Positions 2,130 through 32,876 of a DNA stretch of 50,572 nt are shown here, piece after piece. Numbering within the stretch: the first letter of the stretch is position 1; every line of letters starts with the position of its first letter. The stretch is from positions 1 to 50,572 of the forward strand of contig JAFTBT010000069.1 of NCBI GenBank assembly GCA_017455085.1, given 5' to 3'. Made by a program: the position numbers and the translations under genes. A model generated the notes under the pieces. The model was given only the letters and a program-made list of their open reading frames with translations. It was not told the origin of the DNA and made no database searches. This DNA comes from Synergistaceae bacterium (GTDB lineage: Bacteria > Synergistota > Synergistia > Synergistales > Aminobacteriaceae).

Positions 2130-2143
2130 CTATAAAATATGCT

Positions 2144-2268
2144 CCTCTCAATTTTTCTGCTAACTTCACATGCTCAGATTTTGCGGCTATGATATGTGTA
2201 AAACATTGCGGCCAAGTCATCATAAAATCTTATGCCTCATAGTGAAATATCCGGTCTGTAGAATTTGC
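2144..2268 (-). repeat. Decayed second copy of the lpxC 3' end
   Basis: This stretch between fabZ and lpxC aligns in order with the last roughly 140 bp of lpxC (about 2291-2429): shared blocks include ttctgctarcttca, ttttgcggctatgatRtgtg, tgcggccaagtca and cttatgcctca, separated by small deletions. Read on the minus strand it gives HIIAAKSEHVKLAEKLRGA, against HIIAAKAGHELHLKLAEIL in LpxC. This second tail leads into the fabZ ribosome-binding site. Confidence 0.85.
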
Positions 2269-2280
2269 CTCTAAAGCCTG

Positions 2281-3081
2281 TTACAACTCTATGTGCCTCA
2301 AAATTTCTGCTAGCTTCAGGTGCAATTCATGACCTGCTTTTGCGGCTATGATGTGTGCATTCACGGGTCTACCTACTGCGGCCAAGTCACCAATCAGATC
2401 CAGCACCTTATGCCTCACAAATTCATCCGGCCAATGCAAACCGCCCTTTGCCTGAATCGTCTCGCCGATCACTATTGCGTTCTCCAGACTTCCGCCGAGT
2501 GCCATTCCGTGAGCGCGTAAGTAATCTATATCGCTCTGCATCGCAAAAGTCCTTGCGCAGGATATCTCACCGTAATAGCTTTCCGGACTCTGGACGTACT
2601 CGAAAACCTGAGCACCGATATACTTGTACTCGACCATGTACGTGATTCGTAGCCCATCGTACGGAAGTGCCGCCACAAACCGCGAAGTGTCCTCACCATA
2701 CACGCACACAGCCTCGTCCAGCTTCACGCCTTCACCGCAACTCACAGCACCTTCACGCCTCAAGGCATCACACACCGTGCGTGAACACCCATCAAGTGCG
2801 GGCATCTCTCCGCCGTCAACCGTGAGCCTCACTCCAGACCAGACACCCAGCCCAGCAAGCGCAGACAGTACGTGTTCGCATGTCCGGACTCGTGTGCCAT
2901 CAGGGAATACATAGTCTGATCCTCTGTTCGTGCCAGAGAGTCCCAGCATCCGCAAAGGCAGCTCGTTTTCTCCTGAACGCATGAGTATTTCGGGGAAGTC
3001 ACAGGGTTCTATTGTCAATACACAGTCTTGGCCGGAATGTAATCCTTTGCCTGATAATATAATTTTCCCGTTGAGCGTCAT
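2281..3081 (-). CDS. lpxC: UDP-3-O-acyl-N-acetylglucosamine deacetylase LpxC
   Basis: Zinc enzyme that deacetylates UDP-3-O-acyl-GlcNAc, the committed step of lipid A synthesis. Zinc ligands His70 (CEHVLSAL), His224 and Asp228 (RHKVLDLIGD) are present, as is the general acid-base His251 in AGHELH. At 266 residues it is shorter than the about 305 of E. coli LpxC but holds both domains. The ATG overlaps the stop of a duplicated lpxD tail fragment (ATGA). The only upstream G-rich ribosome-binding site (AGGGG) is about 13 bases away, inside that fragment. Its own 3' end is duplicated downstream. Very confident on function. Confidence 0.96.
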   Translation of the reverse strand: MTLNGKIILSGKGLHSGQDCVLTIEPCDFPEILMRSGENELPLRMLGLSGTNRGSDYVFPDGTRVRTCEHVLSALAGLGVWSGVRLTVDGGEMPALDGCSRTVCDALRREGAVSCGEGVKLDEAVCVYGEDTSRFVAALPYDGLRITYMVEYKYIGAQVFEYVQSPESYYGEISCARTFAMQSDIDYLRAHGMALGGSLENAIVIGETIQAKGGLHWPDEFVRHKVLDLIGDLAAVGRPVNAHIIAAKAGHELHLKLAEILRHIEL

Positions 3082-3082
3082 A

Positions 3083-3124
3083 ATTTTTGCAGCACCCCTA
3101 ACTATTTTTGCAGAGCCTCTAACT
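3083..3124 (-). repeat. 21-bp tandem duplication of the lpxD 3' end
   Basis: Two adjacent 21-bp units, 3104-3124 (inside lpxD, across its stop) and 3083-3103 (after the stop), match at 18 of 21 positions. On the coding strand, LEALQK-stop is followed in frame by LGVLQKL-stop, whose TGA overlaps the lpxC ATG. Confidence 0.85.
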
Positions 3125-4055
3125 TTTTCTCCAGCACCCTCATTCGCTTGAACAGTGAGGGCAGATCCGCAGCGAGGACTAGTGCGCGTTTTGCCTCGTT
3201 GTGAGGTCTTGCCGGGAAACCTGACACAACACTTCCGGCGGGGATGTCGTTCGTGACTCCTGTACGTCCCGCAATAATCGTGCCTTTGCCGACTCGGACA
3301 TGGTCAGTAACTCCTGCCTGCACCGAAATCGTAACGTCATCCTCAATCACCGAGCTTCCTGCTATTCCGGTCATGGAGCAGATTATGCAGTTCTTGCCTA
3401 TGTGGACGTTATGCCCCACCTGAACGTGATTGTCTATCTTTGTGCCGGAGTCTATTACCGTGTCGCTCATTGTCCCCCTGTCAATCGTGGTACATGCTCC
3501 TATCTCCACGTCATCGCCGATTCTCACGCCGCCGGTCTGTGGTATCTTCACGAGACCTTGAGGTGTGCGCTCGAACCCGAATCCGTCAGCACCGATCACT
3601 GCTCCGGAATGTATGAGTGAGTTTTTCCCGACACGGACATTTACCAGCAGTACAGCATGAGGCTCTATGACTGTGCCGTCTCCTACGCTACAGCCTTCAC
3701 CGACAAAAACGTTTGCCCCGATATATGCCTCTGGAGAGATTTTTGCGTCAGGTGCAATCACTGCGGAATGGTGTATGCCTTTGGGTTTGGGCTTGGAGTC
3801 TGAGAACAGTGCGAGTATTTTCGGCATGAGTGCGCGGGGATTTTGTGAGATGAGTCCGATTCTTGAGGCTGTGAAAAATTCTTGAGGTGCAAGGATTGGG
3901 ATGTTTGGGGGTAAATTGTCCAGAGCCTTTTTATCCCAGATTACGCACAGTGAGTCAGAGTCGGCGTTTTCTGGTGAAGATATTCGAGTGATTTCGTGAG
4001 TGGGACTGCCTGAGAATGTGATACCAAGTTTTTCTGCTATAAATGCCAAGTTCAT
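3102..4055 (-). CDS. lpxD: UDP-3-O-(3-hydroxyacyl)glucosamine N-acyltransferase LpxD
   Basis: Third step of lipid A synthesis: N-acylation of UDP-3-O-acyl-glucosamine after LpxC. The protein is 317 residues from the start chosen here (MNLAFIAEKL), which has AGGAGG 7 bases upstream; an in-frame ATG 24 bases earlier lacks one. An N-terminal uridine-binding domain (about 1-95) precedes a long hexapeptide-repeat beta-helix (about 96-290), with His215 in VGHNVHIG matching the catalytic His239 of E. coli LpxD. A short C-terminal helix (FKRMRVLEKKLEALQ) follows. The sequence encoding its last residues is duplicated after the stop. Very confident. Confidence 0.96.
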   Translation of the reverse strand: MNLAFIAEKLGITFSGSPTHEITRISSPENADSDSLCVIWDKKALDNLPPNIPILAPQEFFTASRIGLISQNPRALMPKILALFSDSKPKPKGIHHSAVIAPDAKISPEAYIGANVFVGEGCSVGDGTVIEPHAVLLVNVRVGKNSLIHSGAVIGADGFGFERTPQGLVKIPQTGGVRIGDDVEIGACTTIDRGTMSDTVIDSGTKIDNHVQVGHNVHIGKNCIICSMTGIAGSSVIEDDVTISVQAGVTDHVRVGKGTIIAGRTGVTNDIPAGSVVSGFPARPHNEAKRALVLAADLPSLFKRMRVLEKKLEALQK

Positions 4056-4197
4056 GATGATTCCTCCTTTAGTGTCCAAAAGTGTGTTGTTAGTGACGTA
4101 TCATCTCCAACAAAGACCGAGTATTATTTCCCTGCAAAAAATCACGGGTGCTGCATTATGATCGCCATAAGCTCCAAATTTTCGTGTACACACCCCC
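4056..4197. other. Spacer between lpxD and the upstream exported-protein gene
   Basis: 142 bp without a gene. Apart from the lpxD ribosome-binding site I see AT-rich patches but no convincing promoter or terminator hairpin. The lpx genes may have an internal promoter here, but the sequence does not prove it. Confidence 0.5.
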
Positions 4198-31564: not shown

Positions 31565-31568
31565 TGTG

Positions 31569-32630
31569 TCAGCCCTCAAGTACACGCCTGTAGCACTCGA
31601 TATGTTCTTGAGCGGTTTTGTCCCAGCTAAACAGCTTCAGCCTTTCGCTGCCTGAGGACCTCAATTTTTCACGCAGGTCTTTATCCTCAATGACCTTGAG
31701 GATCTTTGCGCTCATCTCTTCGGTGTTCATGGGGTCAAAATATTCTGCGGCATCTCCTGCAACTTCTGGGAGGGAGCTTGCGTTGCTGCACACTAACGGG
31801 CATTTGCACGCGAAGGACTCCAGCACAGGAATCCCGAAGCCCTCGTATTGTGAGGGGAACACGAAACATTCAGCGTTTGCGTATGCCTGCCGTAGGTCTT
31901 CATCGTTGAGGTTTGCCTGAATGAATCTGCTGCTGAGGGATTTTGCCGCGCCGAGTTCGTGGGGCTTGATATCTCCGCCGCCGGTGCAGAGTACACACAG
32001 TTCCGGATATGCTTCGAGTATAGGGATCATAGCTTCAGCAAAACGTGTGAAGTTCTTGTACCAGCCTCTTAACCCGACAAACAGGACGTATTTTCTGCCG
32101 ATGGGATTCGCTCCAGTATTCTCAAGCTCAGGCATTGAGGTGCCAAGATATATGACTGATATTTTTTCGGAGTCTATGTCTGGATAGAGTTCAAGCACAT
32201 CTTTCTTTGTGTTCTCGGATATAGCTATTATGTGGTCAGCAGCGTGAATCATTCTGCGCTTGTTTGCTATTGTGCCGTTATCTCCGCCGAATTTCTCGTA
32301 AATCATATCGTACACAGTAATAACCAGCTTTCCGGGAAATCTGCCGAGCATGTAGCAGCTATAGAATGTCGGATGAATTATGTCATACTTTCTCATCTCG
32401 ATTAGGGCTTTCACTCTGTTCAGGACTGCAACGGATTTCAGGATAAAGAAGCTGTGAGTAGGTTCGTGCATCTTGAACTGCTCCCTGAAGTAGTAATTTA
32501 TGTTCCTCACACAGCCTATACGTGCGTCTGCTCCGAGATCGTTTACCCTTGAGAACAGCTCAAAGAAATAGCGCGATATGCCTCCGTATTTTTGGGAAGC
32601 AAGTATCTGGAAATCGTAATATACCCTCAT
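31569..32630 (-). CDS. Glycosyltransferase family 4 (GT-B) protein
   Basis: 353 residues, two Rossmann-like domains. The N-terminus MRVYYDFQILASQKYGGISRY has the acceptor-side Gly-Gly loop. The C-terminal half has YVLFVGLRGWYKN and the family E-x7-E signature in YEGFGIPVLESFACKCP (about 271-287). It looks like mannosyl- or rhamnosyltransferases of O-antigen clusters. GAGG 7 bases before the ATG. First gene of the minus-strand glycan block, 4 bp ahead of the reductase. Its 5' end and promoter exist in a second decayed copy at 32755-32836. Confidence 0.9.
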   Translation of the reverse strand: MRVYYDFQILASQKYGGISRYFFELFSRVNDLGADARIGCVRNINYYFREQFKMHEPTHSFFILKSVAVLNRVKALIEMRKYDIIHPTFYSCYMLGRFPGKLVITVYDMIYEKFGGDNGTIANKRRMIHAADHIIAISENTKKDVLELYPDIDSEKISVIYLGTSMPELENTGANPIGRKYVLFVGLRGWYKNFTRFAEAMIPILEAYPELCVLCTGGGDIKPHELGAAKSLSSRFIQANLNDEDLRQAYANAECFVFPSQYEGFGIPVLESFACKCPLVCSNASSLPEVAGDAAEYFDPMNTEEMSAKILKVIEDKDLREKLRSSGSERLKLFSWDKTAQEHIECYRRVLEG

Positions 32631-32711
32631 AAGGCCTCACCTCTAAATTTACTGATATGTTATCATGTGAAATCACAAAGTAATTTTAGCCTAACACAAG
32701 ACATATGCATT

Positions 32712-32740
32712 TGTTCCTAGTAAATCCACCCTTAGGAACA
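32712..32740. promoter_or_regulatory. Inverted repeat in the divergent glycan/gspG region
   Basis: TGTTCCTA and TAGGAACA form a perfect 8-bp inverted repeat with a 13-nt spacer, midway between the two copies of the duplicated promoter. No T-run follows, so an operator or RNA hairpin is more likely than a terminator. Confidence 0.4.
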
Positions 32741-32826
32741 GTTCAGAAATGCAACGTGATATGCCTCCGTATTTCTGGAAAGCAAGTATCTTGGAAATCT
32801 AGGCATCACCTCTAAATTTAGGGATA

Positions 32827-32835
32827 TGCTATTAT
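32827..32835 (+). promoter_or_regulatory. Extended -10 promoter for gspG-gspH
   Basis: TG-C-TATTAT about 42 bp upstream of the gspG ATG matches the hisZ promoter element base for base. It lies in the second copy of the duplicated segment; the first copy has TG-T-TATCAT at the matching place. Confidence 0.55.
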
Positions 32836-32876
32836 ATATCACACAGCTTATAATTCAGACAAAGAAGGTATTTATC

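Follow-up and report, generated by a model that had tools for sequence, protein, structure and literature searches.

Five gene junctions in a 50,572-nt contig of a Synergistaceae bacterium (GCA_017455085.1, contig JAFTBT010000069.1; this whole stretch is hereafter called the window) carry, beside the end of a gene, a second and diverged copy of that same end. The genes concerned are lpxD, lpxC, a thioesterase gene and gspF, copied at their 3' ends, and a glycosyltransferase gene, copied at its 5' end. How did these copies arise, and are they peculiar to these junctions or to the lineage? The most probable answer, to which we give a probability of about 0.82, is a lineage-specific mutational process in rumen Synergistaceae, active in the window and in a related genome (G001), which makes in-place head-to-tail duplications of about 60–300 bp. 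The pattern is real and wider than the initial annotation of the window supposed, and its rate and size class in one lineage are surprising. The copies in the window are the following.

3102..3124, minus strand: 3' end of lpxD, first copy and end now in use, stop TAG (from the window sequence; ancestral junction seen in L001)
3079..3101, minus strand: second, 23-bp copy of the lpxD tail, closing as ATGA on the lpxC start (compared with L001)
2281..2440, minus strand: 3' end of lpxC, intact copy, with terminus HIEL where most relatives end GA
2130..2280, minus strand: lpxC tail relic, second copy, encoding KLAEKLRGAYFIDGR, an ending retained with the fabZ overlap in LpxC P0001
12775..12853, plus strand: thioesterase tail copy 1, with the current stop at 12836-12838
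12854..12916, plus strand: thioesterase tail copy 2, a 63-bp unit
12917..12979, plus strand: thioesterase tail copy 3, which overlaps trkA (start 12973) at the ancestral ATGACTGA
29731..29779, plus strand: 3' end of gspF, current copy
29783..29837, plus strand: second copy of the gspF tail, resembling the gspF end of relatives (0/1000 shuffles in that comparison)
32523..32680, minus strand: 5' end of the glycosyltransferase gene with its leader
32706..32846, minus strand: upstream repeat of the glycosyltransferase 5' end, its second copy (0/1000 shuffles)

Direct self-comparison of the window revealed the lpxC repeat (2147-2357), the thioesterase repeat (three copies, 12775-12975, spaced by 79 and 63 bp) and the glycosyltransferase 5'-end repeat (32545-32846). 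When these three gene ends were scored against their neighbouring sequence, none of 1000 dinucleotide shuffles of the neighbour reached the observed score. For lpxD and gspF, 36 and 95 of 1000 shuffles did so, and the second copies of these two genes would be unconvincing from the window alone; both are supported by relatives. The second gspF copy had a mean score of 18.9 against the gspF ends of 24 relative loci, compared with a maximum of 10.7 for 1000 mononucleotide shuffles, and the lpxD copy matches an ancestral junction described below. All five second copies proposed in the initial annotation thus hold. Six other gene ends of the window were negative in the same shuffle test (127 to 963 of 1000 shuffles reached the score).

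The second copies had been read as the original tails of overlapping genes, closing as ATGA at the lpxC start and as TGA at bases 12-14 of fabZ and bases 6-8 of trkA. These closures are correct, and overlaps are kept in relatives at all three junctions. At lpxD-lpxC, the G001 locus L001 reads CTGCAAAAATTATGATG, so that the second lpxD copy of the window, with ATGA on the lpxC start, corresponds to the ancestral junction. LpxC P0001, 97% identical to LpxC of the window and overlapping FabZ, terminates LRGAYFIDGRT; in the window this ending can be read only from the relic, the working lpxC terminating HIEL. At trkA, copy 3 of the window (ATGACTGA) and the thioesterase tail of G001 (ATGCCTGA) overlap the next gene exactly alike. 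Relatives without the extra length were found for lpxC-fabZ, lpxD-lpxC and thioesterase-trkA, and comparison at the same junctions shows the overlap to be ancestral. The lpxC-fabZ gap of the window is 151, whereas 31 reference loci have -3 to 42 (median 4); for lpxD-lpxC the gap is 20, and 30 reference loci have -17 to 16 (median 1).

The frequency of such copies was then estimated in relatives by a genome scan of the kind the initial annotation had proposed. In the tail test, the last 150 bp of each gene were compared with the next 300 bp, a score of at least 40 was counted, and the neighbours of other genes served as null; in the head test, the first 150 bp were compared with the preceding 300 bp under the same scoring. 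G001 is metagenome-assembled and was sampled over 568 kb; nine of its clusters, at contig or stretch ends, were excluded from the counts, and the stretches fetched from relatives are not a random sample. Tail copies were found for 42 of 468 genes in G001, 0 of 196 in G002, 4 of 141 in G004, 1 of 690 in 29 other genomes and 2 of 46 in the window. The corresponding figures for head copies were 16/475, 1/193, 1/143, 3/710 and 2/46. A 49-kb stretch of E. coli gave no tails (0/43) and no heads (0/44), and self-comparison detected one near repeat of 42 bp in it. The tallies for G001, G002, G004, the 29 other genomes and the window include open-ended open reading frames (ORFs), and their small nulls (such as 2/460 for the window) can contain self-pairs. 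With self excluded from the null, G001 tails amounted to 42/477, against 0/4770 null pairs. Gene-end duplication is therefore repeated, as the initial annotation had it, and lies far above the neighbour null in G001, while tails are absent in G002 and nearly so in the 29 other genomes.

The same distribution was seen for tandem arrays at junctions with a period of 60–500 bp: 34 in 568 kb of G001, none in 243 kb of G002 or 184 kb of G004, and one in 834 kb of the 29 others. Before open-ended ORFs were admitted, the latter three counts were 0, 1 and 3. The junction-repeat level of G004 (L005, L129-L140) is intermediate (5 in 184 kb), and this genome may represent a second or older occurrence. 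Proteins of the window and G001 are about 80% identical (median of 35 reciprocal best hits) and each is about 75% identical to G002, so that, on protein similarity, the two look like sister lineages. The named LpxC matches are from Synergistaceae metagenome genomes, and the 29 encoding contigs are Synergistaceae/Synergistales from ruminant gut samples.

What do the duplications look like where they are frequent? Among G001 arrays with a period of at least 60 bp, 34 lie at junctions and 12 within genes. The junction arrays are head-to-tail, in the manner of locus-specific, minisatellite-like tandem duplication, with periods of 68–297 bp (median 134.5), mostly about two copies (up to 5.3) and 76–100% match, a spread that in-place duplications of different ages would produce. 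Units within genes make up 26% (12/46), versus 75% expected for random placement. The period is a multiple of three in 10 of the 12 in-gene arrays but in only 7 of the 34 junction arrays (Fisher p 2e-4), and the two in-gene arrays that are off frame lie in ORFs of 116 and 111 residues. With both neighbours known, 6 of 30 junctions were convergent and 3 of 30 divergent; these orientations resemble the background (71/501 and 63/501). The initial annotation had placed the process at gene ends: junction copies are indeed abundant, but they are not confined there, since in-frame copies occur within genes. The frame filter and the location bias together fit a location-blind process filtered by purifying selection.

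One such in-gene copy concerns lpxC itself: the G001 gene holds an in-frame 81-bp internal duplication (L001 10313-10467). LpxC P0025 seems to carry another repeat in the same loop, where P0017 has a long insert.

If spacers grow by duplication, spacing should exceed that of relatives by the length added. Reference gap lists leave the window out. Comparable neighbours were available for six duplicated junctions of G001; at each of them the excess spacing nearly equals what was added:

161 for 143 added
153 for a net shift of 156 (the first part of the repeat is shifted by 208, with an intervening deletion)
244 for 247 added
190 for 190 added
352 for five units of 71 (single reference locus)
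183 for 180 added (single reference locus)

In 65 G001 pairs without a detected duplication, the median excess was -3. In the window, 6 of 35 pairs with references had an excess of at least 20: lpxC-fabZ (147), thioesterase-trkA (139, where two copies of 63 and 79 bp were added), the junction after trkH (124), the junction before lpxD (109.5) and two of 36-41. The lpxD-lpxC excess, 19, falls just under this line. The proposed conversion of overlaps into spacers is thus borne out by the overlaps of relatives and by the six testable G001 pairs.

At two of the long window spacers no copy was recognized. The trkH spacer has a gap of 219, against 28-938 at 15 reference loci (median 95), and no tail copy was found in it. 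The other is:

4055..4197, minus strand: spacer before lpxD, longer than that of most relatives, without detectable copy (gap comparison)

Its gap is 118 in the window; of 26 reference loci, 23 have at most 68 and three have more (149, 415 and 820). A tail-copy search of this DUF-lpxD spacer found none, and it is possibly an older, decayed scar. G001 shows a clear duplication at the equivalent junction. G001 also carries its own, different 247-bp duplication at the thioesterase/trkA junction (L072 9560-10050).

Some further features of the window lie near these junctions or resemble them. A minus-strand trio (methyltransferase, sugar epimerase/dehydratase and glycosyltransferase) sits between gspF and gspG at 29780-32846; in several relatives (e.g. 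L195) a prepilin-like start lies directly 3' of gspF. Two junction repeats and one internal repeat of the window were over threshold. The internal one (48694-49392) is not at a junction: it belongs to an open-ended ORF (47837-50572) that has internal repeats of about 285-318 bp and would encode a secreted repeat protein. Shorter units were seen at 37263-37318, where 14-bp units of TGTCTGCTGTCTGT type occur at a glycosyltransferase start, and at about 36058-36095, where GTAGTCC-type short tandem units lie in a spacer.

Consider a tandem duplication of about 60–300 bp, arising in place and apparently anywhere. A unit lying across a gene boundary would leave the upstream gene ending in copy 1 and the downstream gene starting in copy 2. 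Both genes would survive, and a relic of the tail or head would occupy the new spacer. Units falling inside genes would mostly be purged by selection unless in frame, and the relics would then decay. Initial placement would be random, and the source of the copies would be the locus itself rather than import. The joints suggest how copying might start. Among 11 two-copy, non-edge junction pairs of G001 that are at least 90% identical, six meet at -1 to +2 bp, and were therefore joined without microhomology. These clean joints would follow if nicks were filled in or flaps ligated at them, but do not appear to result from slippage between pre-existing repeats. It is accordingly more plausible that copying starts with a displaced strand or with fill-in at a nick or break than with slippage between repeats.

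The initial annotation had taken the intact gene end for a later arrival, brought by recombination with diverged homologues that left the old tail behind. The second copies do retain ancestral features at lpxC, thioesterase and gspF. A tandem duplication across the junction, however, already preserves gene 1 in its first copy and the old junction in its second. A later arrival is then unnecessary, and import of foreign ends is not needed. The annotation had suggested trees of both copies. By pairwise identity, the thioesterase copies of the window are nearest one another (79–86% alike, versus 69–79% to G001 and 65–68% to G002). The lpxC relic and intact copy come out as sisters with a support of 0.88; this tree is weak because it has only 116 columns and the relic is about equally near L002. 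A foreign origin of the lpxC copy is possible on these sequences, the two copies being more diverged than the 97% identity of LpxC to P0001 suggests at first sight. Many G001 junction arrays, on the other hand, are head-to-tail with 95–100% match, within an overall range of 76–100%, and replacement leaves the in-frame repeats within genes unexplained. Replacement by homologues was not upheld, and as a general explanation appears very unlikely.

Strain variants concatenated in metagenome contigs could also produce near copies. G001 is metagenome-assembled, and nine of its clusters stood at contig or stretch ends. In its assembly recA is present twice in full and mutS a second time in part (C2, C94, C72), which suggests paralogues or a mixture of strains. 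Such an artefact, however, would ignore frame and gene borders, whereas the location of the units is strongly biased and most in-gene periods are multiples of three. Every counted duplication lies within one contig, and the same analysis detected almost none in other relatives, of which many are metagenome-assembled too. LpxC P0019, which represents two contigs, shares an in-frame repeat resembling that of L001. An assembly origin is held to be extremely unlikely. A duplication directed to junctions, or selected there, for example because it uncouples overlapping genes, would account for the junction bias and for the excess of tails over heads. Convergent and divergent junctions are affected too, however, unit length at junctions is free of frame, and in-frame copies exist within genes, which makes direction to junctions very unlikely as well.

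Several observations weigh against in-place tandem duplication as a lineage-wide process. The rate comes from a relative whose proteins are about 80% alike, and in the window no more than 2 of 46 tails pass the threshold. Two of the six G001 spacer comparisons rest on one reference locus apiece, and 4 of the 65 pairs without a detected copy still have an excess of at least 60 bp. Joints are not uniform: in the remaining five of the 11 two-copy pairs the copies are separated by 9, 32, 38, 42 and 49 unmatched bases, and some arrays of more copies overlap by 11–30 bp. G001 has 42 tail copies and 16 head copies, a difference that may or may not be due to selection; starts and promoters may tolerate less, leaving fewer head copies. 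The lpxC relic is no closer to the intact copy (distance 0.49) than to L002 (0.48). Two of the five window scars border the gene cluster inserted between gspF and gspG. Finally, gene searches in G001 confirmed no candidate for the responsible enzyme.

Which activities were considered? Ku/LigD end joining was rejected, as no Ku gene was found in any of 61 genomes at E 0.001. Copying by reverse transcriptase was rejected likewise: matches were present in 10 of 14 genomes and none at E 0.001 in G001, whose completeness is unstated. ATP-dependent ligase gave no match in G001, a weak one in G004, and matches over the cut-off in G002 and G026. G001 encodes MutS, PolA (5' nuclease; frame read), RecJ and RecA, their functions being predicted from the genes. 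A mobile or dispersed repeat family was rejected, no position in the G001 sample being covered four or more times by dispersed repeats. TnpB was rejected as well: G001 has 11 copies, whereas G014, with 18, has 0 junction clusters in 60 kb and G032, with 14, has 2 in 60 kb. General repeat instability was rejected because tandem repeats of period 1–59 are not in excess (11 in G001, 4 in G002, 2 in G004 and 17 in the 29 others). Larger duplications were also rejected: the G001 sample held no tandem copies (at least 60 bp, at least 80% alike) 600–5000 bp apart.

As an E. coli topA mutant makes duplications independently of repeats, TopA was compared in 14 genomes, the species of the window not being among them. 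All 14, among them G001, have R at the position of R168; at that of R35, G001 shares K with 10 of the 13 others. A change at R35 or R168 was therefore rejected as the cause in G001. The G001 topA open frame has 293 A/K/T-rich residues before the VESPSKA motif, versus 23–126 in the 13 others (upstream starts are putative). The gene (L249 640-3591) has a long N-terminal repeat region, and it carries its own 128-bp 3'-end copy, 96.9% alike (3371-3718). G001 TopA is a candidate cause as a lead only, and could equally be a product of the process. A heritable tandem-duplication mutator in the clade, in which an altered replication, topoisomerase or nick-processing activity would join or fill displaced strands of 60–300 nt without homology, is possible, though we would not give it even odds. 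Such a mutator would steadily turn overlapping operons into spaced ones and add in-frame repeats to proteins.

About 9% of the sampled G001 gene 3' ends (approximately 1 in 11) are duplicated, at graded ages, and relatives have almost none. This constitutes a natural experiment for comparing joints, sizes, ages and candidate genes, and may teach how new tandem repeats are born. Duplication of this kind can also separate overlapping genes and give proteins repeats or a new C-terminus, as seen in LpxC. Gene finders and operon predictors based on spacers would misread such genomes.

How does this compare with known systems? Intergenic variable-number tandem repeats such as MIRU form tandem units at operon junctions that overlap stop and start codons, and belong to a dispersed family; in the G001 sample no high-copy dispersed family was found. 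Insertion of restriction-modification genes with long target duplication likewise leaves long direct repeats flanking the target, going by the part of that literature covered, but no more than a few tens of bases separate the copies in two-copy G001 pairs, which leaves no room for an inserted gene. In the excerpts available from PMC8355091, short tandem duplications in human and mouse cells are attributed to fill-in at DNA break ends joined by non-homologous end joining (NHEJ). They resemble those described here, but are joined by NHEJ, and Ku was not found in any of 61 genomes here. Mutation accumulation lines of E. coli rarely acquire tandem duplications, according to the portion consulted of PMC10292909, and among the top-ranked titles and abstracts listed by one open library (in one case 10 of 4,316), none described genome-wide junction duplication in a bacterium.

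The closest analogues appear to be the E. coli topA mutator and the tandem repeats of Borgs. The topA R168C mutator, as described in the available sections of PMC6954433, makes de novo head-to-tail duplications independent of existing repeats, as seems to be the case here, and the same source calls the origin of tandem repeats from unique DNA unknown; its units in galK are 2–19 bp, against mostly 60–300 bp here. Borg repeats, in the sections seen of PMC9879509, likewise form locus-unique arrays genome-wide, with units that are multiples of three within genes and mostly not between them. They are perfect, A-rich, with example units of 18–21 nt, and lie on extrachromosomal archaeal elements, whereas the arrays described here have two to five imperfect copies of 68–297 bp on bacterial contigs.

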